Positions 2,395 through 16,746 of a stretch of 16,869 nucleotides of DNA are shown here, in pieces. The translations under genes were made by a program, and so were the position numbers. A model generated the notes under the pieces. The model was not told the origin of the DNA and did not search any database. It saw only the letters and a program-made list of their open reading frames with translations. The DNA is from Caldifarciminota bacterium (GTDB taxonomy: Bacteria > Hydrothermota > Hydrothermia > LBFQ01 > DSFT01): assembly GCA_025060695.1 (NCBI GenBank), contig JANXBH010000021.1, positions 1 through 16,869 on the forward strand, read 5' to 3'. The first letter of the stretch is position 1. Each line of letters begins with the position of its first letter.

Positions 2395-2410
2395 GGAAAT
2401 AGCTATGCTT

Positions 2411-2424
2411 TAAAATTTTCAAAT
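2411..2424 (+). promoter_or_regulatory. -10 box and leaderless start of rpsP
   Basis: TAAAAT at 2411-2416 is followed by 8 bases and then the ATG of rpsP. No Shine-Dalgarno is possible in that space. The distance equals the usual -10 to +1 spacing, so the transcript probably begins at or next to the A of the ATG. No convincing -35 box at 17 bases is seen. Confidence 0.6.
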
Positions 2425-2673
2425 ATGGTAAAAATTCGTCTTCAAAGACATGGAAGAAAGGGAGATCCTGTTTATAGAATAGTAGTTGCGGATTCAAGGT
2501 GGAAAAGAGATGGAAAAGTTATTCAAGTGTTAGGATATTATAATCCGAAAAGAGAAATGGACTTTAGATTAGATCTAAAAGCATATAATGATTGGATTCA
2601 AAAGGGAGCTCAGCCTACCGCGAGAGTAAAAGCTATAGTTAAGCTTCAAATGAAAAAGGAGGTTCAGCAATGA
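2425..2673 (+). CDS. rpsP: 30S ribosomal protein S16
   Basis: Structural component of the small ribosomal subunit. The 82-residue length and the N-terminal pattern VKIRLQRHGRKGDPVYRIVV are typical, followed by the conserved GYYNP (residues 38-42) and the C-terminal GAQPTARV. The ATG at 2425 gives the expected N-terminus and lies 8 bases after a TAAAAT box, with no room for a ribosome binding site. It is the first gene of an rpsP-khpA-rimM operon and its stop overlaps the next start as ATGA. In many bacteria this cluster also carries trmD and rplS; neither follows here. Confidence 0.97.
   Translation: MVKIRLQRHGRKGDPVYRIVVADSRWKRDGKVIQVLGYYNPKREMDFRLDLKAYNDWIQKGAQPTARVKAIVKLQMKKEVQQ
2656..2669 (+). 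promoter_or_regulatory. Shine-Dalgarno of khpA
   Basis: AAGGAGG at 2656-2662 lies 7 bases before the ATG at 2670, inside the end of rpsP. It is the clearest Shine-Dalgarno in the window and contrasts with the leaderless first genes of operons. Confidence 0.8.
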
Positions 2674-2909
2674 ATAGCACAAGAGACCTTTTGGAACAGC
2701 TAGTAAAATCAATAGTTGATAAGCCCGAAAATGTTGAGATAAAGGAAATTCCTGGTGAAAAAGTTGTAATATATGAAGTGAAAGTTGATAGAGAAGATCT
2801 TGGTAAAATTATTGGAAAACAAGGAAGAACAGCAAAAGCTATAAGAACTATACTTGCGGCAATTTCTCTTAAAAGAGGTAAAAAGGTGGTCGTAGAAATT
2901 ATTGAATAG
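2670..2909 (+). CDS. khpA: KH-domain RNA-binding protein KhpA
   Basis: Small RNA-binding protein of 79 residues made almost entirely of one type-II KH domain. The RNA-contacting GxxG loop is seen as LGKIIGKQGRTAKAIR in the middle of the protein, followed by the helix and strand IRTILAAISL and KKVVVEI. Members of this family bind ribosomal and other RNAs, and in several bacteria act with KhpB in cell-envelope control. Its position between rpsP and rimM is the conserved one. It starts by a 4-base ATGA overlap with rpsP behind a strong Shine-Dalgarno, and its 3' end overlaps rimM by 8 bases. Confidence 0.93.
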   Translation: MNSTRDLLEQLVKSIVDKPENVEIKEIPGEKVVIYEVKVDREDLGKIIGKQGRTAKAIRTILAAISLKRGKKVVVEIIE

Positions 2910-3405
2910 ATATCCAGTTGCAAGAATTTTAAAGGATTTTGGTATAAAGGGGGAGTTAAAAGTAAAAGTATATTTTTCTCCCCCTGAGTACTTTAAGAAC
3001 TATAAAAAAGTATCTATATATACTAATGAATTTGGCTTTATTGACTATGAAGTGGATTACTTTAAAATATTGAAAGGACATTACGGTATTCTAAAGTTCA
3101 AAGATATTCATGATTTGCAAGTACTAAAAAAACTTAAAGGTTTAGAAATCTATATAGATGAAAATTTGCTTCCTCCGAAAGAAAATGGTGAATACTATGT
3201 CTACGAGCTTGAAAATCTAAGGGTTTACTATGAAGGTCAGGAAATTGGTTATATAGAAGACATAATACTTCAGAATAACTATACTTTATTTAAAATAAGA
3301 ACTCAAGATGATGAGCTATATATACCTTTTAATAAGAAATTTATAAAGTGCATTGATTTAGAAAATAAAATTTGCTATTTAAATGAAAAAATTCTCAATT
3401 TTTGA
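2902..3405 (+). CDS. rimM: 16S rRNA-processing protein RimM
   Basis: Assembly factor for the head of the 30S subunit. The N-terminal domain begins YPVARILKDFGIKGELKVKV, matching the family's VGRIxxxxGIKGELKV pattern. The C-terminal half is a PRC-barrel: YYVYELENLRVY then EIGYIEDII and the closing LYIPFNKKFIK. At 167 residues it is full length. The start is TTG at 2902: the frame has a stop at 2893-2895, so no other start is available. The overlap with khpA implies translational coupling. Confidence 0.93.
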   Translation: MNRYPVARILKDFGIKGELKVKVYFSPPEYFKNYKKVSIYTNEFGFIDYEVDYFKILKGHYGILKFKDIHDLQVLKKLKGLEIYIDENLLPPKENGEYYVYELENLRVYYEGQEIGYIEDIILQNNYTLFKIRTQDDELYIPFNKKFIKCIDLENKICYLNEKILNF

Positions 3406-3562
3406 AACTTTTATATACATTATGGTATTTTGGCTTGTATTTTCTTTAATTACATCGCTATATTCGTTATACAAAGTAGAGAGACAGATAAAAAATTTAA
3501 AGGATGAAATTGAAAAATATAAAACTGGCTATATTCTCTACAAGTCTAGGTCTTTAAGATGA
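3383..3562 (+). CDS. small single-pass membrane/coiled-coil protein (FtsB/FtsL-like layout)
   Basis: A 59-residue reading frame from ATG at 3383 to TGA at 3560-3562. It starts MKKFSIFETFIYIMVFWLVF, continues with hydrophobic residues to about 27 (one membrane segment), and then has a charged amphipathic stretch KVERQIKNLKDEIEKYK (31-47) that would form a coiled coil. A short cytoplasmic end, one membrane helix and then a coiled coil is the layout of the divisome proteins FtsB/FtsL/DivIC, but it lacks their conserved C-terminal region and is shorter, so I give no name. It overlaps the end of rimM by 23 bases, consistent with membership of that operon, and its last 25 bases overlap the end of rluD on the other strand. 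Without it, 3406-3537 would be empty, which is unusual here. Confidence 0.6.
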   Translation: MKKFSIFETFIYIMVFWLVFSLITSLYSLYKVERQIKNLKDEIEKYKTGYILYKSRSLR

Positions 3563-4527
3563 TATTTTAGAATATTATAAAGTTTTTGCATATCATCTGG
3601 TAAGGGAGTTTCATATATTAATTCTCTTTTTTCTATAGGATGCATAAAAATAAGCTTATATGCATGTAAAGCTTGTCTATTTATGGTATTTAGAATTTCA
3701 TTTACTATACTTCTATAAATAGAAGGAACAACCTTAAATATTTTCCTTGAATCTCTTCCACTATAAACACTATCTCCTATAATTGGAAAACCTATATATT
3801 CCATGTGAACCCTTATCTGATGAGTTCTTCCTGTATCTAATTTTAATTCTAAAAGTGTAGCAACAGAAGAAAATTTCTCTATTACTCTATAGTGTGTAAT
3901 AGCCATCTTTGAATTTATTGGAGTAATTGCCATCCTTTTTCTATCTACAGGATGTCTTCCAATTGGTGCTTGTATTGTCCCTTTATCTTTAATACTTGCT
4001 CCCCATACAAATGCTTTATATAGTCTTTTCATAGTTCTTTTTTGAATTTGTTCTGCTAAATTTCTTACTGCATCTTGCGTTTTTGCTATAACCATTAAAC
4101 CGCTTGTATCTTTATCTAATCTATGAACTATGCCTGGTCTTGTTCTATCAGCTTGAATTTCTAAAATTTTTTTTAAGACTGCATTTACAATTGTTCCCTT
4201 AAAATGACCCTTTGCAGGGTGCACTACAATACCCATAGGCTTATTTATAACAATAATGTATTCATCTTCATAAACTATTGGTATTTCAATGTCTTCAGGT
4301 AATATTTCTGGCTCTTTTTCAACTTCATATTCCACTACAATATGATCTCCTGCTTTTACTTTGTATGAAGGTTTATCTATAACTTTATTGTTTACCTTTA
4401 CTTTTCCTTCTTTTATTAGTTCGCTAACTTTACTTCTTGAAACCCCAATTCCACTAATAGTAAGATAAGTGTCCAATCTCATTTTTTCACTATCTTTTTG
4501 AACTCTTCTTTCAAATGTCTTAATCAT
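3538..4527 (-). CDS. rluD: RluA/RluD-family 23S rRNA pseudouridine synthase
   Basis: Isomerises uridine to pseudouridine in RNA, most likely large-subunit rRNA. An S4 RNA-binding domain occupies about residues 16-70 (MRLDTYLTISGIGVSRSKV...). The catalytic domain follows with VINKPMGIVVHPAKGH (94-108) and the active-site motif RPGIVHRLDKDTSG, whose catalytic Asp is residue 138. TGRTHQIRVHM is the expected C-terminal signature. 329 aa is normal for the family. The specific paralogue (RluD versus RluA or RluC) is inferred from the S4 domain and overall form only. It is divergent from the glycosyltransferase and convergent with the small membrane ORF. Confidence 0.93.
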   Translation of the reverse strand: MIKTFERRVQKDSEKMRLDTYLTISGIGVSRSKVSELIKEGKVKVNNKVIDKPSYKVKAGDHIVVEYEVEKEPEILPEDIEIPIVYEDEYIIVINKPMGIVVHPAKGHFKGTIVNAVLKKILEIQADRTRPGIVHRLDKDTSGLMVIAKTQDAVRNLAEQIQKRTMKRLYKAFVWGASIKDKGTIQAPIGRHPVDRKRMAITPINSKMAITHYRVIEKFSSVATLLELKLDTGRTHQIRVHMEYIGFPIIGDSVYSGRDSRKIFKVVPSIYRSIVNEILNTINRQALHAYKLIFMHPIEKRELIYETPLPDDMQKLYNILKYHLKDLDL

Positions 4528-4545
4528 AAAAACCTTAAAATTATA
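4528..4545 (-). promoter_or_regulatory. -10 box of rluD
   Basis: On the minus strand TATAAT (plus positions 4540-4545) lies 12 bases before the ATG. The predicted leader is about 5 bases. It overlaps the TAAAAT used by the divergent gene. Confidence 0.5.
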
Positions 4546-4550
4546 AAGGT
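4536..4550 (+). promoter_or_regulatory. -10 box for the glycosyltransferase gene
   Basis: TAAAAT at 4536-4541 is followed by 9 bases and then the ATT proposed as start codon at 4551. The spacing matches the leaderless starts elsewhere in the window. It shares bases with the opposite-strand TATAAT of rluD. Confidence 0.45.
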
Positions 4551-5654
4551 ATTAAGAAAATTGTATTTATAATGCCTTACTTCATAAAGGATAACTACGG
4601 AGGTGGTGCTGAAGTTCAGGCGTATTTGACTGCAAAAAGTATTTCAAAATTATACGAAGTGTATTATATAACATCAAATCCCTTAAAAAAGAATAACTAT
4701 GAAATTTTTGAAAGTATGGTGATTATGAGGGTTTTAAAAAATACAAGTATTTATGCAATATTTGATTTTCCAAAAATTGTATATTACTTATTTAAGCTAA
4801 AGCCCGACATAGTCTACTTAAGAGTGAATTATCCATTTTTGCTTCCTGTTGGAATAGTATCAAAAATTATAAAATCAAAAACTATTTGGTTTTCTACGGA
4901 AGATATTACTATAGATAGGTTTTACCACACGAAGAATTTTTTTAAATATCTAAGAAACTATAAAAAATTTTACAAAGTTCCAATTTTGTTCCTAAACTAT
5001 CTTCTTTACGATATATGCTTTTCGCTTGGAATATATTTAATGGATAAAAGAATTGTTCAAAATGGTATTCAAAAGGCAAAACTAAAAAAAATTTTTAATT
5101 TAGATAGCGAGATAGTTTATTCTATTATAGAAGTATCTGAAGAGAGTTTTGAAAAGTCAAAAGAACCTATAGTTCTTTGGGTTTCTCACTTTGGTCAGAG
5201 AAAAAGACCAGAACTTTTCTTAAAGATTGCAAGAAGGCTTCCTAATTATAAATTTATAATAATTGGAAAAGATAGTCCAAACTTTCCAAAGGAAGAGGTT
5301 TTAAAAGATAAACCTGATAATTTGATATATCTTGGGGGTCTTAGCTTAGAGGAAACAAATGAATATTTTAAAAAATCTTGGATTTTTGTAAATACAAGTG
5401 ATAGAGAGGGTTTTCCTAACACATTTTTACAAGCATTTAAATATAAGTCCGTTGTAGTGTCCTTAGAGGTTGACCCTGATAATATTTTAACGAATAATAA
5501 AATAGGTTTTGTAGTCGGAAATATAGATAATGCAATAGAAATTATAGAAAAATTAGTAAAAGACGAAGAGCTAAGAAATGATATTACAAATAGGGCTTAT
5601 GAGTATCTTTTAAAGCATCACTCTATTAATAACATATTAGAGTTTTTTAAATAA
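4551..5654 (+). CDS. GT4-family glycosyltransferase (GT-B fold)
   Basis: Transfers a sugar from a nucleotide-sugar donor, probably in surface polysaccharide or glycolipid synthesis. The N-terminal domain holds the acceptor loop KDNYGGGAEVQ, and the C-terminal GT4 domain has VLWVSHFGQRKRPELFLKIA and later SDREGFPNTFLQAF. In that last motif the usual EX7E reads E...Q, a variant I believe also occurs in other GT4 enzymes. The first ATG is at 4572, but the frame is open back to 4536 and encodes KKIVFI before MPYF, which is exactly the first beta strand of the Rossmann domain. I therefore place the start at ATT 4551, 9 bases after a TAAAAT box; there is no ATG/GTG/TTG in that stretch. The conservative start is 4572. 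The gene ends 8 bases inside the end of nadE on the other strand. Confidence 0.85.
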   Translation: MKKIVFIMPYFIKDNYGGGAEVQAYLTAKSISKLYEVYYITSNPLKKNNYEIFESMVIMRVLKNTSIYAIFDFPKIVYYLFKLKPDIVYLRVNYPFLLPVGIVSKIIKSKTIWFSTEDITIDRFYHTKNFFKYLRNYKKFYKVPILFLNYLLYDICFSLGIYLMDKRIVQNGIQKAKLKKIFNLDSEIVYSIIEVSEESFEKSKEPIVLWVSHFGQRKRPELFLKIARRLPNYKFIIIGKDSPNFPKEEVLKDKPDNLIYLGGLSLEETNEYFKKSWIFVNTSDREGFPNTFLQAFKYKSVVVSLEVDPDNILTNNKIGFVVGNIDNAIEIIEKLVKDEELRNDITNRAYEYLLKHHSINNILEFFK

Positions 5655-7350
5655 GAAACTTATTGGTATTAGCATATCTTCTGTCTCTATAAAATGCTCT
5701 TTTTGTAATTTTTGGGCCTATTGGGGATTGCTTTCTTTTAAATTCATTTATTCTAATTCTATTTAGAGTTTCTATGACATAATTTTCATCATTTACATAA
5801 TTTAAAATATCGTATATTGACAAGTCTTCCTCGACAGCCATTTGGATAACTCTATCTAATAATTCATAAGGTCCAATTTCATCTTCATCATATTGATTTT
5901 CTTTAAGTTCGGCTGAAGGTCTTTTTAGTATAATTCTTTCAGGAATTACTAATTCCTCTTGATTTCTCCACTTTGCAATTTTATATATCCAAGTTTTATA
6001 TACATCTTTCAATGGAGCATATGCTCCTACCATATCTCCATATAAAGTAGCATATCCTACCGCGTATTCACTTTTATTTCCAGTTGAAATAACTAATGCC
6101 TTAAATTTATTTGATATAGCCATTAGAATGTTTCCTCTAATTCTTGATTGTAAGTTTTCCTCAGTTGTATCGCTTTCTAAATTCTTAAATACCCTATCGA
6201 GTTCAGATAGATACACCTTAAATATCTCATCTATGTTAAACTCATAAAAACTAATACCAAGATTTTGTGCAACTTTCTTTGCATCTTCATAACTTTCAAT
6301 TTTATTATATCTACTTCCCATCCATACACCAATTACATTCTCACTTCCAAAAGCATCTTTACATAAAACGCTAGTTATTGCAGAATCTATACCTCCAGAT
6401 ATTCCAACAACAACTTTATTAAATCCGCTTTTTATTACATAATCTTTCAAACCAAGCAAAATCGCTCTATAAACTTCTTCTTCAAAAACTAAATTATCAC
6501 TCAAACTTCCAAGAAATTTAATTTCGTTTTTTAACTCCTTTTGGATATAAACTTCCTTTATTTCTTCATGTAGTATATGCTCATATAATCTATTTTCGTG
6601 TGATTTTTGATTTAATGACCATAACTTCGGTATATCTATAATCATTAAGTCTTCTTCAAATGATTTTGCTCTTGAGATTACTTTTTTTTCATTTACTACA
6701 AAGCTTCTTCCGTCAAATACTAAATCATCTTCTCCACCTACTAAGTTTACATAAACTATCGGGACAAGATTATCTATATTTCTTGTGATGATAAGTGCTT
6801 CTCTTTCTTGTTGCTTTCCTACATAAAATGGAGAACCATTTATTACTATTGAAAGGTCAATACCATAAAGACTATATTTTCTTAGTGGTCCATCTGGATG
6901 CCAAGCATCTTGACAAATTACAACACCTACTTTATATCCACCTATATTTATAACCTTATACTCATTACCCTTCTTGAATATTCTCTTTTCATCAAAAGTT
7001 GTATAGTTTGGTAGATGAAACTTTTCAATTGTATCTACAATTCTATTCTTATATAAAATAGCTGCACTATTGTATACAAAACCATTCTTTTCATTTACAA
7101 ACCCTACGATAACTACTTCATCATTTACAAATTTTGAGATTTCCTCCATTGCTTCCTTATTCTTCTTTACAAAACTTGGTCTTAATGCTAAGTCCTCAAT
7201 TAAATAGCCACTTAGTGCAAGTTCTGGAAATACTACTAAATCGCTGTTGTATTCTCTTGACCTTTGAATATAACTTATAATTTTTTCCTTATTGTATTCT
7301 AAATTTCCTACTATAGGATTGATTTGACATATTGCAACTCTTATATTCAT
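5647..7350 (-). CDS. nadE: glutamine-dependent NAD+ synthetase
   Basis: Final step of NAD synthesis: amidation of deamido-NAD using ATP and ammonia released from glutamine. The N-terminal nitrilase-type glutaminase domain has its triad visible as Glu43 (VVFPELALSGY), Lys110 (IEKFHLPNY) and Cys146 (VGVVICQDAW). The C-terminal synthetase domain has the PP-loop SGGIDS at 318-323 and the later STGNKSEYAVGYATLYGD. At 567 residues it is a complete two-domain enzyme. The ATG at 7348-7350 overlaps the stop of the upstream lipoprotein gene as TAATG, so the two are in one operon and probably translationally coupled. Its 3' end overlaps the glycosyltransferase end by 8 bases. Confidence 0.96.
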   Translation of the reverse strand: MNIRVAICQINPIVGNLEYNKEKIISYIQRSREYNSDLVVFPELALSGYLIEDLALRPSFVKKNKEAMEEISKFVNDEVVIVGFVNEKNGFVYNSAAILYKNRIVDTIEKFHLPNYTTFDEKRIFKKGNEYKVINIGGYKVGVVICQDAWHPDGPLRKYSLYGIDLSIVINGSPFYVGKQQEREALIITRNIDNLVPIVYVNLVGGEDDLVFDGRSFVVNEKKVISRAKSFEEDLMIIDIPKLWSLNQKSHENRLYEHILHEEIKEVYIQKELKNEIKFLGSLSDNLVFEEEVYRAILLGLKDYVIKSGFNKVVVGISGGIDSAITSVLCKDAFGSENVIGVWMGSRYNKIESYEDAKKVAQNLGISFYEFNIDEIFKVYLSELDRVFKNLESDTTEENLQSRIRGNILMAISNKFKALVISTGNKSEYAVGYATLYGDMVGAYAPLKDVYKTWIYKIAKWRNQEELVIPERIILKRPSAELKENQYDEDEIGPYELLDRVIQMAVEEDLSIYDILNYVNDENYVIETLNRIRINEFKRKQSPIGPKITKRAFYRDRRYANTNKFLI

Positions 7351-8735
7351 TATTTAGTTGAAAGGACTTGAATTTGCAATTTTCCTACAATTCCCATAAT
7401 TTCTGCTTGTTTATCAATAGAACCTCTCTGGAGCATAATATGACCTACGTCCGCAGGAAACTGATTAAAAGTAGGGTCTATCCATATCCAATTTCCACTA
7501 ATATAAATTGCATTCCACGCATGATAGTAATATCTTCCGTTTTGATATATTAGTCCAACTATTATATCTGTTGGGATACCTGCTGCTCTTGCAAGAGCAG
7601 TGTATAGTATAGAATGCTCATTACAATCTCCATAACCCATATTTAAAACCTCTATAGCATTTGGAACACTTACTGTAGGTCTTTTTTCTAAATTCGTATA
7701 TACCCAGTGCATTATTGCTCTTGATTTTTCTAAAATTGATGTTTTATTGCTTACTATTTCTTGTGCAAGTTTTTTTATTCTTGGGTCATCTGACTGTGCG
7801 AATGCATCAGCCTTCAAATATTGCCTGATACTATCAGGTATATTGCTATCTTCTTTTATATCTTTAATGTTTTGTCTTTTTATTTCTATAATTACTCCGT
7901 TGCTGTCTTTTTCTATAATTTTTTGTGCTCCAAAGTCCAATACAAGCTCTCCCCTTAAGTTTTCAAGTTTTAATAATAAAACGCTGTCCTTATTTGGATC
8001 AAATGTTCCATTTGGTTGTATTGCAAATGTTAAAAGAACATCTAAATTTTTATTTTCAGTTTTTGTAGCAATTTCCTTTGGCTCACTAATTAATGTAATA
8101 TCAAATGGCATTTCAACTTTTATTATTCTATTTTGATAGATATAAACTTTGGTTTCTGCACCAAACATATTAGTTCTATATACTCTTGCATTAATAGTTT
8201 TACCATTGTATTGAGTTTCTAATAATCCTAAGTTTTCACTTTTTGCCGTTCCTAATACAAAATTTGTAGGATCATATACATTCATTTCTTTTGGAGGCTC
8301 CTTTCCAAGTATTAAAAGAGCCCACCATGCTTGTGGGAGATAGAATTCATATTTTAAATCGTGAATTCTTTCGGTTTTTGGCATATTCTTTCCTTCCATT
8401 TTTACTATAAGCTTATTATTTTTAACCTCTCCATTTACTTTTACAAATACATCTGTTTTTAGCTCAAAACTAAAGCTTTTTACTTTTAATTGATTATCTA
8501 ACTTGATTTTAGTAAGTGTCTGAAGTTCCTTATCCTGATCTAACATTTTTAGTCTAAGAATAGAGTTTTCTACAACTTCATAACTATTAAATACTTTCCT
8601 AATATAGTAGTGATAATATCCGACTTTGTTTCCCCTAATGTATGCGGAAAACCAGTCCTCATATTTATTTTCAATAAATTTATTTTCCACAAAAGAACAA
8701 GAGACCAAGCTCAAAAATATAATTTTCTTAAACAT
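7350..8735 (-). CDS. transglutaminase-like lipoprotein (putative cysteine protease/peptidase fold)
   Basis: Exported protein of 461 residues. The N-terminus MFKKIIFLSLVSC is a short signal peptide ending in a lipobox (LVSC, Cys13), so it should be lipid-anchored outside the cytoplasm. A beta-rich region (about 30-330) is followed by a transglutaminase-like core with a visible triad: Cys371 (GYGDCNEHS), His405 (YYYHAWNAIY) and Asp420 (WIWIDPTFNQ). Such domains may cleave or cross-link peptides; the substrate is unknown. The arrangement is like bacterial proteins with a large N-terminal domain in front of a C-terminal transglutaminase core. Its ATG lies 7 bases after a TAAAAT box. It is co-transcribed with nadE, with no obvious functional link. 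Confidence 0.88.
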   Translation of the reverse strand: MFKKIIFLSLVSCSFVENKFIENKYEDWFSAYIRGNKVGYYHYYIRKVFNSYEVVENSILRLKMLDQDKELQTLTKIKLDNQLKVKSFSFELKTDVFVKVNGEVKNNKLIVKMEGKNMPKTERIHDLKYEFYLPQAWWALLILGKEPPKEMNVYDPTNFVLGTAKSENLGLLETQYNGKTINARVYRTNMFGAETKVYIYQNRIIKVEMPFDITLISEPKEIATKTENKNLDVLLTFAIQPNGTFDPNKDSVLLLKLENLRGELVLDFGAQKIIEKDSNGVIIEIKRQNIKDIKEDSNIPDSIRQYLKADAFAQSDDPRIKKLAQEIVSNKTSILEKSRAIMHWVYTNLEKRPTVSVPNAIEVLNMGYGDCNEHSILYTALARAAGIPTDIIVGLIYQNGRYYYHAWNAIYISGNWIWIDPTFNQFPADVGHIMLQRGSIDKQAEIMGIVGKLQIQVLSTK

Positions 8736-8748
8736 ATTGAAAATTTTA
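8736..8748 (-). promoter_or_regulatory. -10 box and leaderless start of the transglutaminase gene
   Basis: On the minus strand TAAAAT (plus 8743-8748) is followed by 7 bases and ATG. The local sequence TTTAAAATTTTCAAT before ATG is almost identical to that before rpsP (one A longer there). Confidence 0.6.
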
Positions 8749-8757
8749 AACTTACCT

Positions 8758-8769
8758 TAAAATTTTAAA
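8758..8769 (+). promoter_or_regulatory. -10 box for the MFS transporter gene
   Basis: TAAAAT at 8758-8763 lies 6 bases before the ATA proposed as start at 8770. The two divergent starts are 34 bases apart. A second overlapping TAAAAT is at 8766-8771, but no start codon follows it at the right distance. Confidence 0.4.
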
Positions 8770-9975
8770 ATAGTTAGTAAGTTATTTAGCATAACAGTTT
8801 TAGTATCTGCTTTTGGTTATTTTGTAGATATTTACGATTTATCGCTTTTTGGTATATTAAGAGTTCAAAGTTTAATAGACTTAGGATACGAAAATAAACT
8901 ATTTGATTATGGGGTATTGCTTTTGAATATGCAAATGTTTGGTATGTTGGTTGGAGGAATAATATGGGGGATTATTGGAGATACAATCGGAAGAAAAACT
9001 ATTCTATTTGGTTCTATATTGCTATTTTCTATTGGTAATATTTTAAATGCTTTTGTAGTTGATATATATCAGTATGCAATATTAAGATTTATTACAGGTA
9101 TTGGTCTTGCAGGTGAATTAGGTGCTGCAATTACATTGGTTTCAGAAATTTTGGATAAAGAGATTAGAGGATATGGAACTACAATAGTTGCAAGTTTTGG
9201 TCTTCTCGGTGCAGTGTTTGCAAGTATAACCGCTGAATTTTTCCATTGGAGAGTGATGTATTTCATTGGTGGTATTCTTGGAATTTTGTTATTCTTCTTA
9301 AGACTTAAAACTATGGAAAGTTCAATATTTGAAAGGTCAAGAGTTTTAAATATAAAGCGAGGTGATTTTATAGGAATATTTACAAATGTAAGCAAGTTTA
9401 GAAGATACACTATTATACTCATTACAGGTCTTCCTATTTGGTTTGTATTTAGTATATTAATTACTTTTTCTCCTGAGGTTGCAAAGTCTTTAAATCTAAA
9501 TATAAATATCTCTGCTGGAAAAAGTATAATGTTTGCATATCTTGGTATTTCCTTAGGTGATGCAGTTAGCGGAATTTTAAGTCAAAGGCTTAAAAGTAGA
9601 AAAAAGCCCATATATATATTTCTTCTTTTACTTTTTATTGTAGTGCTACTTTATCTTTATTTCAATAAAGAAAGTTACTTTGTTTTTTATTTCTATAATT
9701 TTCTACTTGGATTTTTTGCAGGGTATTGGGTATTATTTTTAACCGCTGGTGCAGAGCAGTTTGGAACAAATATAAGGGCAACTGTTGTTAGCACTTTACC
9801 AAATTTTATTAGGGGTTCTGTGGTTTTGATAACACTCTCTTTTAATTATATAAAAAGTTATTTTGATTTTATTACTTCAGCAGTTATTCTTGGAACTATA
9901 ATTATTCTTGTGGCATTTATATCTACTTTACTTATGGAAGAAACATTTGCTAAAGACTTGGATTATGTTGAATAA
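8770..9975 (+). CDS. major facilitator superfamily transporter
   Basis: Secondary transporter of the inner membrane with about 12 helices; substrate unknown. The loop between helices 2 and 3 has the family motif GDTIGRKT, and helix 4 contains RFITGIGLAGELGAA, as in the sugar/organic-acid-type MFS group. The first ATG/GTG/TTG in frame is TTG at 8917, which would begin inside helix 2. Upstream the frame is open to a stop at 8758 and encodes KLFSITVLVSAFGYFVDIYD, a clear MFS first helix. No ATG, GTG or TTG occurs there, so the start is most likely ATA at 8770, giving 401 residues. Its last 26 bases overlap the end of the PHP phosphatase gene on the other strand. Confidence 0.85.
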   Translation: MVSKLFSITVLVSAFGYFVDIYDLSLFGILRVQSLIDLGYENKLFDYGVLLLNMQMFGMLVGGIIWGIIGDTIGRKTILFGSILLFSIGNILNAFVVDIYQYAILRFITGIGLAGELGAAITLVSEILDKEIRGYGTTIVASFGLLGAVFASITAEFFHWRVMYFIGGILGILLFFLRLKTMESSIFERSRVLNIKRGDFIGIFTNVSKFRRYTIILITGLPIWFVFSILITFSPEVAKSLNLNINISAGKSIMFAYLGISLGDAVSGILSQRLKSRKKPIYIFLLLLFIVVLLYLYFNKESYFVFYFYNFLLGFFAGYWVLFLTAGAEQFGTNIRATVVSTLPNFIRGSVVLITLSFNYIKSYFDFITSAVILGTIIILVAFISTLLMEETFAKDLDYVE

Positions 9976-10591: not shown

Positions 10592-10604
10592 TCCTAAAAT
10601 TTTA
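10592..10604 (-). promoter_or_regulatory. -10 box and leaderless start of the PHP phosphatase
   Basis: Minus-strand TAAAAT (plus 10599-10604) is followed by 7 bases and ATG. It lies 6 bases from the opposite-strand TATAAT of the mutase subunit gene. Confidence 0.6.
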
Positions 10605-10610
10605 ATGCTT

Positions 10611-10627
10611 TATAATTGTAGAGCTAT
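10611..10627 (+). promoter_or_regulatory. -10 box of the B12-binding mutase subunit gene
   Basis: TATAAT at 10611-10616 lies 11 bases before the ATG. The predicted leader is 4-5 bases and no Shine-Dalgarno is possible. Confidence 0.55.
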
Positions 10628-11041: not shown

Positions 11042-11417
11042 AGCATTAGAATATACAAAATTCTCATATGCACCATATTCTAAATTTAAAGTAGCGTGCA
11101 TTCTTATTGCTTCAAATGGAAATGAGGATAAAGAGTTTTATGGTGTAAATGTAGAGAATAGTTCTTATGGTCTTACAATATGTGCTGAAAGAGTAGCAAT
11201 ATTTAAAGCAATATCTGAGGAATATAAAATTCTAAAAGCTCTTTATTTGGTGGCAGTTGATAGTGAAGGTTTTGAAGTATTGGATATTATGCCTTGTGGT
11301 GCATGTAGGCAAGTTATGATTGAATTTTCGGATAATCTAAGTATTATTACAAGAAAGTCTGAATATAAAATTAAGGAACTTATACCATTTTCTTTTAGGC
11401 TAAAAAACCACATTTAA
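11013..11417 (+). CDS. cdd: cytidine deaminase
   Basis: Deaminates cytidine and deoxycytidine to uridine and deoxyuridine in pyrimidine salvage. The zinc site is visible: Cys57 and the proton shuttle Glu59 in [12 protein letters not shown], then Cys95 and Cys98 in MPCGACRQV. The N-terminal [12 protein letters not shown] and the [10 protein letters not shown] stretch are the nucleoside-binding signatures. 134 residues is normal for the homotetrameric class. The start at 11013 lies inside the mutase subunit gene, implying coupled translation. Its stop TAA (11415-11417) forms the first three bases of the next promoter's TAAAAT. Confidence 0.95.
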
Positions 11418-11428
11418 AATTTCACACT
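11415..11428 (+). promoter_or_regulatory. -10 box and leaderless start of pstC
   Basis: TAAAAT at 11415-11420 is followed by 8 bases and ATG. The TAA of the box is the stop codon of the cytidine deaminase gene. No Pho-box-like direct repeats were recognised. Confidence 0.6.
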
Positions 11429-12337
11429 ATGCGAGATTCCGTATTAGATATACTATTTAAATTAATATCTCTTTTTTGTGCATTATTATTAGCTGTAGTA
11501 TTTATATCAATTTTTGTGGTGCTATACTATGAAGCAGAACTCTCCATATCAACATTTGGAATTGCTTTTATGTTTAAACCTATTTGGGATCCAGTAAGGG
11601 AGATTTTTGGTGGTTTGATACCAATAGTGGGTACAATTTTAAGTTCAATGATTGCTATTATTTTGGCTACTCCTGTAAGTATTGGTATTGCAATTTTCAT
11701 TACTGAAATATGCCCTGTATATTTAAGAAATATAATAAGAACAACTATAGAGTTGTTATCTGCAATACCGAGCATTATATATGGAATATGGGGATTGTTT
11801 GTGCTTGTCCCTTTTATGAAGAACTACGTTGAGCCATTTTTAATTAAATATTTTGGTTTTATGAAGATATTTCAAGGAGAACCGTTTGGTATTGGTCTTC
11901 TTAGTGCGGGAATAGTTCTTGCAATAATGATAATCCCAATAATATCTTCCATATTAATAGAAGTGTTCTACTTAGTACCAAATGTCTTTAAAGAGTCTGC
12001 ATATGCTCTTGGTGCTACAAGGTTTGAAGTAATAAGTAAAGTGGTTATCTCCTATACTAAGGTGGGTATATTAGGTGGTATTATACTTGGTCTTACAAGG
12101 GCACTTGGAGAAACTATGGCGGTTACTTTCGTTATAGGAAATAGTTATAAAATACCATCTAATATCTACGATCCAACTATTACTATAGCATCTGCATTAG
12201 CAAACGAATTTACAGAAGCAACTACAGACTTATACTTATCAAGTTTATTTTATCTATCACTATTGCTATTTCTTATTTCGTTTATAATAATATCTATTTC
12301 GCGGTTTATAATACATAGAATAAGGGTTCCTATATGA
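11429..12337 (+). CDS. pstC: phosphate ABC transporter permease PstC
   Basis: Membrane subunit of the high-affinity phosphate importer. At 302 residues it has about six membrane segments. The conserved region SAIPSIIYGIWGLFVLVPF is a PstC hallmark, and the cytoplasmic EAA loop that contacts the ATPase is seen as FKESAYALGATRFEVISKVV. RALGETMAVTFVIGN near the C-terminal part is also diagnostic. The start follows a TAAAAT box with no room for a ribosome binding site. The pstA gene follows with a 4-base overlap (ATGA). Neither the binding protein PstS nor the ATPase PstB is in the window. Confidence 0.95.
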   Translation: MRDSVLDILFKLISLFCALLLAVVFISIFVVLYYEAELSISTFGIAFMFKPIWDPVREIFGGLIPIVGTILSSMIAIILATPVSIGIAIFITEICPVYLRNIIRTTIELLSAIPSIIYGIWGLFVLVPFMKNYVEPFLIKYFGFMKIFQGEPFGIGLLSAGIVLAIMIIPIISSILIEVFYLVPNVFKESAYALGATRFEVISKVVISYTKVGILGGIILGLTRALGETMAVTFVIGNSYKIPSNIYDPTITIASALANEFTEATTDLYLSSLFYLSLLLFLISFIIISISRFIIHRIRVPI

Positions 12338-13155
12338 GAAGGAGAATTTTTATTAATAATTTGTCTGAGATACTATCTATTATTTCCGCAATGGTAGGTA
12401 TTGTTTTCCTTATTTGGATAATTAAAGACGTAGTTGTTTTTGGTATAAAGTCAATAAACTTAGAGTTTTTTCTTGAAAATCCAAAACCCCCTGGTATTGA
12501 AGGCGGTGGTTTGAAAAATGCAATTTTTGGAAGTATTATAATTGCTACAATTGCTGTTATTATAGCATTTCCTATTGGATTATTAGGTGCGACTTATATA
12601 AATGAGTATAGAACAAAAATATCAGGAATTATAAGGTTTATAACTGATATAATGTTGTCCGCTCCTTCAATAGTAATAGGTGCTTATGTATATGCTTTAC
12701 TTGTTAAACCATTTAAGACATTTTCCGCAATAAGTGGTTCAATAGCTTTAAGTATTATAATGATACCAATAGTATTAAAGGCTATTGATGAACTTCTAAA
12801 TCTTGTCCCAAATATTACCAAGGAAGCTGCATATGCACTTGGTGCACCGAAATGGATGATTATTACGCAAATTATATGGAGGTACATTAGAACTGGTATA
12901 TTAACCGCATTTCTTATAGCATTTGCAAGAATTATGGGAGAAACTGCTCCCTTATTATTTACAAGTTTTAATAATATGTTTTTTGAAACTGATATTACTA
13001 AACCTATGGCAACACTAACTGTAAGTATATTTAACTATGCAATGTCTCCGTATGAAGAATGGCATAGACTTGCATGGTCTGCAAGTTTTCTAATAGTTAT
13101 AGTGGTTCTTTCAGTAAATATTATTTCAAAGATTATACAAAGTAGAGGTTCATAG
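12334..13155 (+). CDS. pstA: phosphate ABC transporter permease PstA
   Basis: Second permease of the phosphate importer, 273 residues, six predicted membrane segments. Diagnostic stretches are PPGIEGGGLKNAIFGSI, the SAPSIVIGAYVYALLV segment, the EAA loop TKEAAYALGAPKWMII, and ARIMGETAPLLFTSFNN. It overlaps pstC as ATGA and would form the PstC-PstA transmembrane pair. A PstB ATPase would be expected next; a small cysteine-tailed protein takes that place. Confidence 0.95.
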   Translation: MRRRIFINNLSEILSIISAMVGIVFLIWIIKDVVVFGIKSINLEFFLENPKPPGIEGGGLKNAIFGSIIIATIAVIIAFPIGLLGATYINEYRTKISGIIRFITDIMLSAPSIVIGAYVYALLVKPFKTFSAISGSIALSIIMIPIVLKAIDELLNLVPNITKEAAYALGAPKWMIITQIIWRYIRTGILTAFLIAFARIMGETAPLLFTSFNNMFFETDITKPMATLTVSIFNYAMSPYEEWHRLAWSASFLIVIVVLSVNIISKIIQSRGS

Positions 13156-13157
13156 CT

Positions 13158-13382
13158 ATGGACTATCTTAAGGAATTCATTTATATTAAATTTAAATTGC
13201 CCTTAGTTCAAGAGTATAAGTATTTAGAGGATACACTTATATTTGTTAGTTTTATTGAATTTTTTGGTCTTGAAAATCCATTGGGAATATTTGCAATAGA
13301 TTTATATCCTGACCTTATAGAAGCTTTTCATAATTGGCATAAGAATTTAGATATTAAGGGGTACAATTTACCGTGTTGTTAG
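13158..13382 (+). CDS. cory-CC-star-like small protein
   Basis: A 74-residue soluble protein ending in a Cys-Cys pair (73-74). The pattern IEFFGLENPLGIFAIDLYP followed by LIEAFHNWHKNLDIKGYNL and terminal CC matches what I recall of the uncharacterised cory-CC-star family (LGIPNP...LLP...DFHEWHRR...CC). The function is unknown; paired C-terminal cysteines could bind metal or form a disulfide, but this is inference. Members I recall sit beside ArsA/GET3-like ATPases; none is seen here. The ATG is 2 bases after the pstA stop, with AGAGGTT upstream as a weak ribosome site, so it belongs to the pst operon. Its end overlaps a possible minus-strand ORF by 29 bases. Confidence 0.65.
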   Translation: MDYLKEFIYIKFKLPLVQEYKYLEDTLIFVSFIEFFGLENPLGIFAIDLYPDLIEAFHNWHKNLDIKGYNLPCC

Positions 13383-13491
13383 TTAAGTTTTTAATAAATT
13401 CTGCAATTCTATTGCTGAATGAGTATATATTAACTCTTTCATTGCTTAAAGGGACTAATAGAGATGTCAAAATAATCTCCCTTTTCCTCAT
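13354..13491 (-). CDS. possible 45-residue protein, unknown
   Basis: An ATG on the minus strand (13491-13489) opens a 45-codon frame beginning MRKREIILTSLLVPLSNERV and ending NTVNCTP. I do not recognise it. Support is positional: its ATG lies 8 bases after a minus-strand TAAAAT, exactly as for the leaderless genes, and it fills the 125-base gap between two plus-strand genes. Against it: it is short, has no known domain and overlaps the end of the cory-CC-star gene. It could also be an antisense RNA or the relic of a longer gene. Confidence 0.35.
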   Translation of the reverse strand: MRKREIILTSLLVPLSNERVNIYSFSNRIAEFIKNLTNNTVNCTP

Positions 13492-13505
13492 GTTATAAAA
13501 TTTTA
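13492..13505 (-). promoter_or_regulatory. -10 box for the small minus-strand ORF
   Basis: Minus-strand TAAAAT (plus 13500-13505) is followed by 8 bases and ATG. It interleaves with the plus-strand box for the next gene. Confidence 0.4.
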
Positions 13506-13507
13506 AA
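13494..13507 (+). promoter_or_regulatory. -10 box and leaderless start of the conserved exported-type protein
   Basis: TATAAA at 13494-13499 lies 8 bases before the ATG at 13508. The whole region between the two divergent ATG codons is 16 bases. Confidence 0.5.
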
Positions 13508-13996
13508 ATGTTTCTTATTTTCTTATTTTCAAAAGATGACATATCAAGCTTGGCTGACAAAATTGTATTATTAATTCAGAAGGGAGACTTTAAGAATATT
13601 TCTAATTATGCAACTAAGGAAGGAATAATTTTTTCTATAGATATTTACATTGACTCATTAGACCCAAAGCTTTCAGCAAAAAAACTTAAGTTTATACTAA
13701 AGGATACTACAAAGCTATTTTTTGGATATGAAAGTGGTTCAGGAAGAGAAATTTATATGACATTTAACGATTTCTATAAAAAATACTTAAACAAAGATTA
13801 TATAAAGGGTAAAAAGTCAATAAATAGTCTAATCGGAAAAACTTCAGTAAAAAATAATATTTTGGAGTATTTTAAAAATGCACAGTTTGTTGAATACTAT
13901 TTAGAGGGAAAAGAAGAATACGACTGGCATAGTTTAATATTAGTCTTTAGGGGACGGGCATTATTAGCAATAATTCATAGTAGTTGGTCTCCTTAG
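13508..13996 (+). CDS. conserved hypothetical protein, exported/lipoprotein-like family
   Basis: A 162-residue protein of a widespread uncharacterised family. Recognisable features are LIQKGDFKNISNYATKEGI followed by FSIDIYI, FFGYESGSGREIYMTFNDF (the G-Y-x-D/S-GSG motif), AQFVEYYLEG, and the closing EYDWHSLILVFRG then ALLAIIHSSWSP. Relatives usually carry a signal or lipoprotein peptide; here only MFLIFLF is present, so the signal is very short or the true start is missed. No upstream ATG exists in the short promoter gap. Family function is unknown; fold and context suggest a periplasmic or surface protein. Confidence 0.75.
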   Translation: MFLIFLFSKDDISSLADKIVLLIQKGDFKNISNYATKEGIIFSIDIYIDSLDPKLSAKKLKFILKDTTKLFFGYESGSGREIYMTFNDFYKKYLNKDYIKGKKSINSLIGKTSVKNNILEYFKNAQFVEYYLEGKEEYDWHSLILVFRGRALLAIIHSSWSP

Positions 13997-14003
13997 AATG
14001 CCT

Positions 14004-14018
14004 TAAAATTTTGTAGTT
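14004..14018 (+). promoter_or_regulatory. -10 box and leaderless start of the aldehyde dehydrogenase gene
   Basis: TAAAAT at 14004-14009 is followed by 9 bases and ATG at 14019. No ribosome binding site is seen. Confidence 0.6.
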
Positions 14019-15482
14019 ATGAACGAGTATAAAATCTTTATAAATGGGAATTTCATAGAAGGAAATGGAGGTATGGGCGAGGTTATAAATCCACACGATA
14101 ATAAGGTAATTGCTAAATACTACATTGCAAGTAAAGAAGATGTAGACTTAGCTGTGAAGTCAGCAAGACAAGGCTTTGAAAAATGGAGAAATACTCCTAT
14201 AAATAAAAGAATTAGAATACTTCAAAATTTATCAAAATTACTACAAGAAAATGTTGACAAAATTGCGGAAATTGAAAGTTTAAATGTAGGAAAACCCATA
14301 AATGCCTCAAAGGGAGAAATTCTTGCAGGAATAAATGTTTTAGATTTTTATATAGGTGCTATAAATAAAATTATGGGTGAAACTATTCCTACATTACCTG
14401 GTTTATTTAACTATACTATTAGAGAACCTATAGGTGTTTGTGCTCTTATTGTTCCTTGGAATTATCCATTTATGTTAACGATGTGGAAAATATCTCCCGC
14501 TCTCGCTTGTGGAAATAGTGTTATTATTAAGCCTGCAAGTTGGACACCATTAACAGCTATTGAACTTGCAAAACTATGCAAAGAAGCAGGTATTCCTGAT
14601 GGAGTAGTAAATGTTATAACTGGTCCGGGAAATACAATAGGCTCTTATCTTGTAAGTCATGAAGGTGTAGATAAAATCTCATTTACAGGAGAAACTAAAA
14701 CTGGTTCAGAAATTATGAAATTAGCAAGTAATACTGTCAAAAGGATTTCGTTAGAACTTGGTGGAAAGTCCGCAAATATTGTATTTGAAGATGCTGACAT
14801 AGATGAAGCGGTAAATGGTTCAATTTGGGGTATATTCTATAATTCTGGTCAATCTTGCGAAGCAAGGAGTAGACTATTTGTTCAGAAAAACATATATGAT
14901 AAGTTTTTATCAGCTTTTCTTGAAAAAACTAAAAAAATAAAAATTGGAAATCCAATTTTAAAAGAAACCCAAATGGGACCAATTATAACAAGGACTCATT
15001 TAAACAATGTCCATAGTATAGTAGAGAGAGGAATAGAAGAAGGAGCAAAAGTTGTCTATGGTGCAAAGAAAATAGAAACCGAGGATTTAAAAGATGGAAA
15101 CTATTATTTACCAACTATATTGGAGTTAGAAAGTACTAACAATACATGCTTTAAAGAAGAAATATTTGGACCTGTTGTAGTAATAATGCCTTTTGAAACA
15201 GAGGAAGAAGTTATAGAGCTTGCAAATGATAGTAAATATGGTCTTGCAGGAACAATATGGACGAGGGATGTAAAACGTGCAATTAGGGTAAGTAGTTCTA
15301 TAAGAGCAGGAAGCATTACTGTAAATCATCCACTAACTGCAATACCAGGACTTCCATTCGGCGGATATAAGCAGTCTGGTTTTGGAAGAGAACTTTCATT
15401 AGATGCTATTGATTTATTTACAGAAAAGAAGAGTGTAATTTATAAATACGATGAAAATCCATTTAACCCATGGAACTTGTAG
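14019..15482 (+). CDS. NAD(P)-dependent aldehyde dehydrogenase
   Basis: Oxidises an aldehyde to the acid with NAD(P). The family residues are all present: Asn148 (VPWNYP), Lys171 (IKPASWTPL), Glu246 (LELGGKSANIVF) and catalytic Cys280 (NSGQSCEARSRLFV). EEIFGPVVVIMPF and PFGGYKQSGFGREL complete the C-terminal half. 487 residues is full length. The sequence looks like the betaine-aldehyde/aminobutyraldehyde branch (RLFVQ after the Cys, AIPGLPFGGYKQSG), but the substrate cannot be fixed. It heads a unit with nuoF and overlaps it by 13 bases, so its product may feed NADH straight into Complex I; that link is inference. Confidence 0.94.
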   Translation: MNEYKIFINGNFIEGNGGMGEVINPHDNKVIAKYYIASKEDVDLAVKSARQGFEKWRNTPINKRIRILQNLSKLLQENVDKIAEIESLNVGKPINASKGEILAGINVLDFYIGAINKIMGETIPTLPGLFNYTIREPIGVCALIVPWNYPFMLTMWKISPALACGNSVIIKPASWTPLTAIELAKLCKEAGIPDGVVNVITGPGNTIGSYLVSHEGVDKISFTGETKTGSEIMKLASNTVKRISLELGGKSANIVFEDADIDEAVNGSIWGIFYNSGQSCEARSRLFVQKNIYDKFLSAFLEKTKKIKIGNPILKETQMGPIITRTHLNNVHSIVERGIEEGAKVVYGAKKIETEDLKDGNYYLPTILELESTNNTCFKEEIFGPVVVIMPFETEEEVIELANDSKYGLAGTIWTRDVKRAIRVSSSIRAGSITVNHPLTAIPGLPFGGYKQSGFGRELSLDAIDLFTEKKSVIYKYDENPFNPWNL

Positions 15483-16714
15483 AAAAGAGACTAATTCTAT
15501 CATATACTGACGATGAAGGTTCAATTACTATAGAAAATTATATCAAAAAAGGTGGATATAAAGCATTGAGAAAAGCACTGGAAATGCGACCAGAAGAAAT
15601 TATAGAGGAGGTAAAAAAGTCTGGTCTTAGAGGAAGGGGTGGTGCAGGATTTCCTACAGGACAAAAGTGGTCTTTTGTTCCGAATGACGGAAACGAGCAT
15701 TATCTTGTAATAAATGCAGATGAAGGAGAACCTGGAACTTTTAAAGATAGAGAAATATTAGAAAAGGCACCTCATCTCTTAATTGAAGGTGCAATCATAT
15801 CAGCATATGCAATTAAAGCAAATGAAGGATTTATATATTTAAGAGCGGAATATATGGATGCATTCAAAATTCTAAAAGATGCTATAATTGAGGCCTATAA
15901 CAATAGTCTGCTTGGAAAAAACATCTTGGGTAGTAATTTTTCATTTGATTTACATTTATATCCAGGTGCAGGTGCATACATATGCGGAGAAGAAACCGCA
16001 CTATTAAATTCTCTTGAAGGGAAAAGAGGCATACCAAGATTAAAACCACCATTTCCTGCAATAAAGGGTCTTTATGGAAAACCTACAGTAGTAAATAATG
16101 TGGAAACAATAGCTAACATTCCAATTATTATAAATAATGGTGGAGATTGGTATAAAAAGCTTGGAACTGAAAAAAGCACAGGAACTAAGATATTTACAAT
16201 TAGTGGAGCGGTAAAAGAACCAAAAGTATGCGAATTTGAATTAGGAAAAATTACATTTAGACAGCTTATTGAGTATGCTGGTGGAATAAGGGAAGGTTCT
16301 AAACTGGTAGGAGTTATTCCAGGAGGACTTTCCGCACCAATTCTAATAAATGATGAAATTGATATTCCTGCCACTTATGAAGATTGTTCTTTAAAGAATA
16401 CTATGCTTGGAAGTGGTGCAGTAATAGTAATTGACGATAAGATACCATTAGCAAAAATTATTAGAAGGTCAATACAATTTTTTGCATTTGAAAGTTGTGG
16501 TTGGTGCACTCCCTGTAGAGATGGTCTTCCATGGGCTACAAGGATTTTAAGAAAAATTGAAGTAGGAAATGGTAGAAGAGAGGATTTAGATACACTTTAT
16601 GAAATTTGTAATTACATTAAAGGAAAGACTTTTTGTGCACTTGGAGAGGGAGCGCAGTGGATATTAAGGGTTTATATTGAAAAATTTGGTGAGAAAATTC
16701 TAACTCAAGGTTAA
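15470..16714 (+). CDS. nuoF: NADH-quinone oxidoreductase subunit F
   Basis: FMN- and NADH-binding subunit of Complex I (51 kDa type), 414 residues. The FMN/NADH site is visible as SGLRGRGGAGFPTGQKW (about 51-67) and the INADEGEPGTFKDRE stretch, followed by GAGAYICGEETALLNSLEG. The N3 4Fe-4S cluster ligands are Cys343, Cys346 and Cys349 (ESCGWCTPCRDG) and Cys389 (KTFCALGEG). Its ATG lies within the last 13 bases of the aldehyde dehydrogenase gene, with no strong Shine-Dalgarno. NuoE, its usual upstream partner, is absent here. A stand-alone NuoF could also serve as the diaphorase part of a hydrogenase or formate dehydrogenase; the short N-terminus fits plain NuoF. Confidence 0.94.
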   Translation: MELVEKRLILSYTDDEGSITIENYIKKGGYKALRKALEMRPEEIIEEVKKSGLRGRGGAGFPTGQKWSFVPNDGNEHYLVINADEGEPGTFKDREILEKAPHLLIEGAIISAYAIKANEGFIYLRAEYMDAFKILKDAIIEAYNNSLLGKNILGSNFSFDLHLYPGAGAYICGEETALLNSLEGKRGIPRLKPPFPAIKGLYGKPTVVNNVETIANIPIIINNGGDWYKKLGTEKSTGTKIFTISGAVKEPKVCEFELGKITFRQLIEYAGGIREGSKLVGVIPGGLSAPILINDEIDIPATYEDCSLKNTMLGSGAVIVIDDKIPLAKIIRRSIQFFAFESCGWCTPCRDGLPWATRILRKIEVGNGRREDLDTLYEICNYIKGKTFCALGEGAQWILRVYIEKFGEKILTQG

Positions 16715-16732
16715 TCTTTTATCTTTAAAATT

Positions 16733-16746
16733 TAAAATATTAATTA
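16733..16746 (+). promoter_or_regulatory. -10 box before the last, partial gene
   Basis: TAAAAT at 16733-16738 is followed by 8 bases and ATG at 16747, matching the leaderless pattern. A further TAAAAT is at 16726-16731. Confidence 0.5.

Follow-up and report, generated by a model that had tools for sequence, protein, structure and literature searches.

Actinobacteria, Deinococcus-Thermus and other bacteria are known to have leaderless genes in which a -10 element adjoins the start codon (PMC3160421, PMC12340547). In Deinococcus-Thermus, about one third of the genes carry a TANNNT motif of the -10 type 6-7 bp ahead of the open reading frame (ORF), which acts as a promoter, and have no Shine-Dalgarno (SD) sequence (PMC12340547). 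Zheng et al. (2011) surveyed 953 bacterial genomes, with no WOR-3-type lineage listed among them, and in 207 of these detected TA-like signals of leaderless genes, TANNNT being located about 12 bp before the start (PMC3160421). In Sulfolobus-type archaea, leading genes are leaderless, internal genes are SD-led, and the TA-like box lies near -30 (cited in PMC3160421). In E. coli, pseudo-symmetric -10 elements drive divergent transcription from start sites that are mostly 18 bp apart, distances of 10 and 23 bp being also common (Warman et al. 2026; PMC12825309). Here we analyse a 16,869-bp stretch of DNA (the window; contig JANXBH010000021.1) from a Caldifarciminota bacterium, in which a box centred on TAAAAT stands a few bases before the start codons of genes that lead transcripts. 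An earlier inspection of the window (the original prediction) had read TAAAAT, 7-9 bases and a start codon as the -10 promoter of mRNAs devoid of a 5' leader.

The best explanation of the data as a whole, which we regard as highly probable, is that RCTTTAAAATTTT is the core promoter of the genus, lacks a -35 element and yields mostly leaderless mRNAs for leading genes. As in Deinococcus-Thermus, a -10-like element adjoins the start of genes without an SD sequence, and an SD motif is found on the remaining genes (PMC12340547). In contrast to that system, the element is 13 bases long, with nearly fixed C-15TT and T-6TT and a central AAA rather than NNN; it also precedes tRNA and rRNA genes, and it comes from an unrelated bacterium of a candidate phylum, with a guanine-plus-cytosine (GC) content of 30%. 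The locus shares with this class of genes a box 6-7 bp from the start, a preference for leading genes, the others being SD-led, and a putative promoter role. TANNNT marks leaderless transcription, and operon-distal genes are SD-led, also in the genomes surveyed by Zheng et al.; unlike the low-GC examples reported there, which feature TG before TATAAT, TAAAAT is here preceded by CTT and followed by TTT (PMC3160421). Labour is divided by operon position as in Sulfolobus-type archaea, although the signal is a bacterial -10 element at -12 and not a box near -30. Leaderless genes with an adjacent -10 and bidirectional -10 elements are thus each already known, and their combination is new. So are the use of a 13-bp box without -35 for every class of RNA and the fact that predicted leaderless genes, when divergent, can share it. 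Within the collection of papers searched, none mentions both WOR-3 and leaderless genes. A -10 element adjacent to the start codon can evidently prevail as a rule in a lineage of uncultured bacteria, in which transcript starts, operons and true start codons become readable straight from the sequence, and gene callers that expect an SD sequence may miscall starts.

Distribution of the box among gene classes

The genome spans 1.497 Mb in 77 contigs and has a GC content of 30%. Gene classes were counted in a 405-kb sample (20 stretches), and sequence patterns were counted in the whole genome. Genes were called by a program that ignores upstream DNA in calling starts; starts chosen by codon score that cut N-termini (7350-8690, 12391) were replaced.

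TAAAAT lies 5-11 bases before the start codon in 84 of 117 transcript-leading genes (72%), i.e., in 69 of 96 divergent genes and in 15 of 21 genes that follow a same-strand gap of 16-50 bp. The corresponding figure is 27/199 (14%) for operon-internal genes (gap of 15 bp or less), 15/1660 (0.9%) for in-frame internal Met codons and 68/5238 for out-of-frame ATGs. Leading genes differ from internal genes with an odds ratio of 16 (p ~1e-25) and from internal Met codons with a Fisher p of ~1e-99. The contrast is sharper for the longer form YYWTAAAATTT, present at 67 of the 117 leading starts and at a single one of the 1660 internal Met codons. The original prediction that nearly every first gene has the box is borne out by these counts, and its chance estimate of roughly 0.5% was of the right order. 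It was to be abandoned if TAAAAT proved equally frequent at internal genes and random positions, and this is not the case.

The spacing can also be measured with no recourse to gene calling. In the sample, ATGs that follow TAAAAT peak at spacings of 6-9 bases (42, 51, 53 and 39 occurrences) over a background of about 23; no comparable peak was observed in the same sample with GTG, TTG or any of the further hexamers tried. In the whole genome, TAAAATN{7,9}ATG occurs 468 times and the backward pattern 254 times, and the extended box CTTTAAAATTTN{3,8}ATG is found 213 times, as against 6 for the backward control.

These figures bear on whether TAAAAT before ATG is an artefact of composition, expected by chance at 30% GC and picked out by the earlier reader. 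TAAAAT is a common hexamer, and in the window the bare pattern TAAAATN{6,10}ATG exceeds expectation only about twofold (11 versus 5.4, a count reached by 5 of 200 shuffles), so that the question could not be decided from the window by itself. However, the counts of the extended box, those by position (84/117 versus 15/1660), the fixed C at -15 and the occurrence of the same architecture in relatives with 48-55% GC leave an artefact with practically no probability; the controls by position and by gene class have in fact refuted it.

Structure of the box

Alignment of the sites on the box, together with an iterated position weight matrix (PWM), gave a 13-base element, R-C-T-T-TAAAAT-T-T-T, with TAAAAT at its core. 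In 109 box-aligned sites, -16 is occupied by A or G, -15 by C (84%), and -14 and -13 by T (74% and 86%); the three bases following TAAAAT are T in 97%, 92% and 61% of the sites. The original prediction understated the element in this respect, as well as in its range: the box is also used by genes for stable RNAs and by some SD genes that have a leader, and can be shared by divergent genes. By comparison with canonical sigma-70 promoters, the -10 hexamer is matched (TAAAAT, or TATAAT at some genes), a housekeeping RpoD with regions 2.4 and 4.2 is encoded, and both the -35 element and the TG of extended -10 promoters are unmatched, TG being replaced by T-14 and C-15.

The absence of a consistent -35 element, already remarked upon in the window, holds in the alignment, as information upstream of -16 does not exceed 0.15 bit in the box-aligned sites. 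At spacers of 15-19 bases, TTGACA is no commoner than shuffled versions of this hexamer, be it in mRNA or in tRNA promoters. A hidden -35 was also considered and discarded: TTGACA stays within the range of its shuffles, and the upstream AATTTTAAAG signal is a box on the opposite strand, which mostly belongs to the divergent neighbour. A backward-PWM control was dropped in favour of controls by gene class; such a control is uninformative for a near-palindrome, whose reversal looks much like the box itself.

Promoter function and transcript starts

In the fetched loci, 24 of 33 tRNA genes carry the box 7-21 bases (median 11) ahead of the mature 5' end; most of the tRNA genes lacking it sit behind another tRNA in a cluster. 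The box is also found before the tmRNA gene and about 70 bases before the 16S rRNA gene. None of these RNAs undergoes ordinary translation, and the box is therefore a promoter and not a translation signal, as also supported by orthologues that share little besides the box and the start codon, their upstream DNA being otherwise unrelated. The promoter role assigned to TAAAAT in the original prediction is upheld by both lines of evidence.

We nonetheless considered the box as a translation-initiation signal of the mRNA, comparable to the AT-rich or Kozak-like context of Bacteroidetes, with the real promoters located further upstream. The box does occupy the place of an SD sequence, and SD-like sites occur in none of 122 genes with a near box, in 5 of 22 genes whose box is 15-80 bases away on the upstream side, and in 13 of 60 genes with no box. 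Besides the stable RNA genes, however, this explanation is contradicted by the rarity of the box ahead of operon-internal starts, by its presence far upstream of some SD-led genes and by divergent pairs 17-45 bp apart, which leave no room for a promoter outside the coding sequence of the neighbour. We consider it very improbable.

The SD machinery is intact. The 3' end of 16S rRNA, GGATCACCTCCTTT, includes the anti-SD CACCTCCTTT, and AGGAGG precedes internal genes 32 times versus 1.6 expected. For instance, khpA, located within an operon, has the AAGGAGG noted by the earlier reader, and AAAAAGGAGGTTCAGCA-ATG is kept in the sister species.

When this species and its sister are taken together, the box of protein genes is separated from the start codon by 6 (35 genes), 7 (52), 8 (26), 9 (26), 10 (20) or 11 bases (10). 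The start codon of boxed genes is ATG in 136 cases, TTG in 18 and GTG in 17. Immediately ahead of the ATG, 69% of boxed genes have T and 1% have G, compared to 37% and 18%, respectively, of unboxed internal genes; a T-rich, G-poor -1 position fits a T(-1)A(+1) initiator. In two tRNA genes, just 7 bases separate the box from the mature 5' end, and polymerase must there start within about 7 bases. Since the start site is bounded by these close tRNAs and start codons lie 6-11 bases from the box, most boxed mRNAs should have a leader of 0-4 bases. Real, if short, leaders of 5-15 bases could arise if polymerase started nearer the box than 7 bases or if start codons lay further downstream; translation would then be SD-independent but not leaderless. 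The spread of the spacing from 6 to 11 bases speaks for such leaders, as a fixed start site makes a leader of 2-4 bases likely at spacings of 9-11. Yet the modal spacing of 6-7 bases allows a leader of at most 1-2 bases at the usual distance from box to start, and both T at -1 and the avoidance of G at -1 persist at nearly every spacing, which renders short leaders improbable as a general account.

Near a divergent gap of 124 bp (L018), the box is followed after 7 bases by a short ORF (MISKTKF*), located upstream of the gene's own ATG. It may be a leaderless upstream peptide or a sequence error.

Divergent genes and shared boxes

In the genus, both starts are boxed in 44 of 61 divergent pairs. 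Divergent start codons are mostly less than 50 bp apart, with a median of 47 in the genome of the window. In seven pairs, start codons 17-22 bp apart lie over a single palindromic box. These pairs combine a shared pseudo-palindromic -10 with outputs about 18 bp apart, and the distance between their start codons matches the preferred distance of 18 bp between start sites in the E. coli bidirectional promoters (PMC12825309). In contrast to E. coli, both outputs are predicted leaderless protein genes, and the promoter is the entire intergenic region. Three such pairs are listed in Table 1, with product names read from translations and not obtained by family search. Palindromes with an ATG on both sides occur at one place in the genome of the window and at several in the sister species. 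In the window, the starts at 13491 and 13508 (16 bp) have the shared form, and so would those of rluD and the glycosyltransferase gene (23 bp) should the latter begin at ATT 4551. We infer from this symmetry that shared boxes drive transcription both ways. With 17-22 bp between start codons, the shared promoters bring divergent genes extremely close together and offer a clean setting in which to study how polymerase chooses its orientation.

Conservation and range

At rpsP, the window and the sister species are identical over the stretch that begins with the C of the box and ends with the ATG, and the DNA further upstream is unrelated. Conservation is likewise concentrated in the box and the start in several other leading orthologues. 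The box of the aldehyde dehydrogenase gene, for instance, reads GCCTTAAAATTTT in the window, GCTTTAAACTTTT in the sister species of the same genus and ACTTTATACTTTT, at the same place, in the other genus of the family. The pattern CTTTAAAATTTN{3,8}ATG is counted 298 times versus 11 in the sister species and 26-27 times versus 0 in the other genus of the family, and is near background elsewhere in the class. At about 50% GC, this sister genus (family members G002 and G003) still features TTTAAA(A/C)TT beside starts, and TAAAAT precedes 12 of 45 leading starts, compared to 0.55 expected. The sister family within the order (G004, 55% GC; G006, 41% GC) has TA(T/G)AAT 6-11 bases before ATG; in G004, 14 of 19 starts are preceded by TANAAT at 6-10 bases.

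Among 147 genomes of the phylum, TANAATN{6,9}ATG is most strongly enriched in this order (e.g., 516 versus 40 and 554 versus 47); outside it, the enrichment is usually 1.1-3 fold and reaches about 7 fold or more in a few genera. The exact box is specific to the genus, and the -10 spacing predicted to yield leaderless mRNAs spans the order and, more weakly, the phylum. Sister lineages ranging from 28% to 55% GC keep the spacing and alter the box, and with them the idea put forward in 2011, of a signal that becomes longer with decreasing GC, can be tested directly.

The nearest named relatives, according to RpsP, are candidate division WOR-3 and records labelled Thermotogota, whose loci share the 6-11 spacing. 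Two of the bins labelled Thermotogota (L024 and L029) rank with WOR-3 by RpsP and have the same spacing from -10 to ATG; their label is possibly wrong.

Proposed mechanism and sigma factors

We propose that the box is an elongated -10 element, in which TA-A/T-AAT at -12 to -7 is flanked by near-fixed R-16 C-15 T-14 T-13 and by T-6 T-5 T-4, and that the housekeeping sigma factor would read it with no -35 element. Transcription would begin about 7-8 bases past the box. In leading protein genes, the start codon at 6-11 bases, mostly 6-7, would place the mRNA start 0-4 bases from it, and these messages would be translated as leaderless. Operon-internal genes and a minority of leadered genes would depend on SD pairing to the intact anti-SD, and tRNA genes would use the same box at 7-21 bases. 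Divergent genes could thereby lie 30-49 bp apart on two back-to-back boxes, or 17-22 bp apart on one palindromic box, a tight spacing made possible by the self-sufficiency and near-palindromic nature of the box.

A broader version, to which we assign about an even chance, is that the genus dispenses with -35 elements for general transcription: a self-sufficient 13-bp box (-16 to -4) would set the promoters of mRNA, tRNA and rRNA genes, nearly all leading mRNAs would be leaderless, a palindromic box shared by divergent genes would make up the whole intergenic DNA between them, and sigma would have its DNA contacts adjusted to C-15TT and T-6TT.

There are three sigma factors in the genome, i.e., RpoD (541 residues, with regions 2.4, 3.0 and 4.2 present), a sigma factor of 273 residues and one of the size of extracytoplasmic function (ECF) factors. 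Either minor sigma factor, or an architectural DNA-binding protein, might accordingly recognise the box in place of RpoD, and its departure from the -10 plus -35 plan is in keeping with this. In contrast, the range of genes served (tRNAs, rRNA, rpsP and most leading genes) is the domain of a housekeeping sigma factor, and the flanks also surround TATAAT variants (tRNA-Phe, -Trp and -Pro, rluD); we hold the assignment to another factor to be unlikely.

Residues T440 and Q437 of E. coli RpoD contact the -12 base pair. At the position of T440, RpoD (L102/L145) has I in this species and M in its sister, and all other relatives examined have T or S. The change was considered as the cause of the box and is not upheld, since G002 and G003 keep T440 and yet use the TTTAAA(A/C)TT box.

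Several points weigh against a leaderless core promoter. Apart from residue 440, RpoD regions 2.4 and 4.2 look ordinary, so that sigma alone explains neither the loss of -35 nor C-15TT. A near box is found in just 4 of 38 genes that follow a same-strand gap of more than 50 bp, a weak class in which many cases look SD-led, or as if a neighbour had been missed or the start mis-called. The counts by gene class come from a home-made gene caller applied to 27% of the genome, and transcript starts are read from sequence and not from RNA. The exact 5' ends, the sigma factor involved, leaderless translation and the two-way firing of shared boxes are all deduced in this manner.

Candidate AUU and AUA starts

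Two additional leading genes of the window conform to the grammar of the original prediction, but only if started at non-AUG codons. In the glycosyltransferase gene (4551-5654, plus strand), the frame IKKIVFIMPYF... (IKKIVFIMPYFIKDNYGGGAEVQ) opens at ATT 4551, 9 bases past the box, and a start at ATG 4572 would remove the usual N-terminus; an AUU start on a leaderless mRNA is possible. In the MFS transporter gene (8770-9975, plus strand), no ATG, GTG or TTG lies ahead of the conserved N-terminus (IVSKLFSITVLVSAFGYFVDIYD), and the codon 6 bases past the box is ATA. The N-terminus conserved in the sister species thus lies upstream of the first ATG, GTG or TTG, and the sister species itself starts at a nearby TTG. 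Since no excess of ATA or ATT is observed genome-wide 5-9 bases after boxes, any real AUU or AUA starts must be rare. A third candidate of this kind, with AUA, was noticed in the sister species (L110), in which the frame of a secreted-looking protein (IIISFFLLKLSAIIPD...) includes ATA 7 bases past the box CCCTTAAAATTTC.

Features of the window

Box positions and gene starts are reported in Table 1. TAAAAT followed by 7-9 bases and ATG was found as predicted at rpsP, the transglutaminase, PHP/CpsB, pstC and aldehyde dehydrogenase genes and the ORF at 13491, and so was TATAAT, 11 bases before the B12-binding mutase subunit and 12 before rluD. At the last gene, TAAAAT with a spacing of 8 is also present, but a better box had been overlooked, and which of the two is used is ambiguous. 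The TATAAA claimed 8 bases before 13508 is not the sole element, as TAAAAT is also found there. The boxes of rluD and of the glycosyltransferase gene overlap in a single near-palindrome, CCTTAAAATTATAAAGG. The start of the PHP/CpsB-type phosphatase gene is 36 bp from that of the divergent B12-domain gene. The coding status of the 37-codon minus-strand ORF at 13491 has no independent support and is unproven.

Table 1 Promoter boxes, gene starts and shared-box pairs. Positions refer to the window; the last three rows give loci of the genus.
Feature	Position or locus	Strand	Details
rpsP promoter box GCTTTAAAATTTT	2407..2419	+	TAAAAT at 2411; ATG 2425, spacing 8
khpA Shine-Dalgarno AAGGAGG, box absent	2655..2669	+	operon-internal contrast case
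glycosyltransferase promoter box ACCTTAAAATTAT	4532..4544	+	TAAAAT 4536-4541; probable non-AUG start ATT 4551, spacing 9; PF00534
rluD promoter box CCTTTATAATTTT	4537..4549	-	TATAAT 4540-4545; ATG 4527, spacing 12; PF00849 and PF01479
transglutaminase-domain gene promoter box	8740..8752	-	TAAAAT 8743-8748; ATG 8735, spacing 7; PF01841
MFS transporter promoter box ACCTTAAAATTTT	8754..8766	+	TAAAAT 8758-8763; probable non-AUG start ATA 8770, spacing 6; PF07690
PHP/CpsB-type phosphatase gene promoter box	10596..10608	-	TAAAAT 10599-10604; ATG 10591, spacing 7; PF19567
B12-binding mutase subunit promoter box GCTTTATAATTGT	10607..10619	+	ATG 10628, spacing 11; PF02310
pstC promoter box	11411..11423	+	TAAAAT 11415-11420; ATG 11429, spacing 8; PF00528
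palindromic core TAAAATTTTA, reads both ways	13496..13505	.	ATG 13508 (+), spacing 6; ATG 13491 (-), spacing 8
aldehyde dehydrogenase promoter box GCCTTAAAATTTT	14000..14012	+	TAAAAT at 14004; ATG 14019, spacing 9
last gene, two overlapping boxes	16722..16738	+	CTTTAAAATTT at 16723 (15 bases to ATG 16747); TAAAAT 16733-16738 (spacing 8)
prmC / sigma factor	L002		shared palindromic box, 20 bp; region L002 16313-17899
SufS-type cysteine desulfurase / membrane-type protein	L013		shared palindromic box, 18 bp
acyl-CoA dehydrogenase / TonB-receptor-like protein	L011		shared palindromic box, 22 bp

The left end of the contig (1-1480) has a GC content of about 0.42, compared to 0.27-0.31 elsewhere in the window. 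It holds a D12-class adenine methyltransferase gene (PF02086), followed by broken short frames; a recent acquisition, a mobile element or a chimera at the contig end are candidate origins. Ahead of rpsP (1476-2394), a coding stretch resembling a membrane protein is spread across several frames and looks like a decayed gene or the result of frameshifts.

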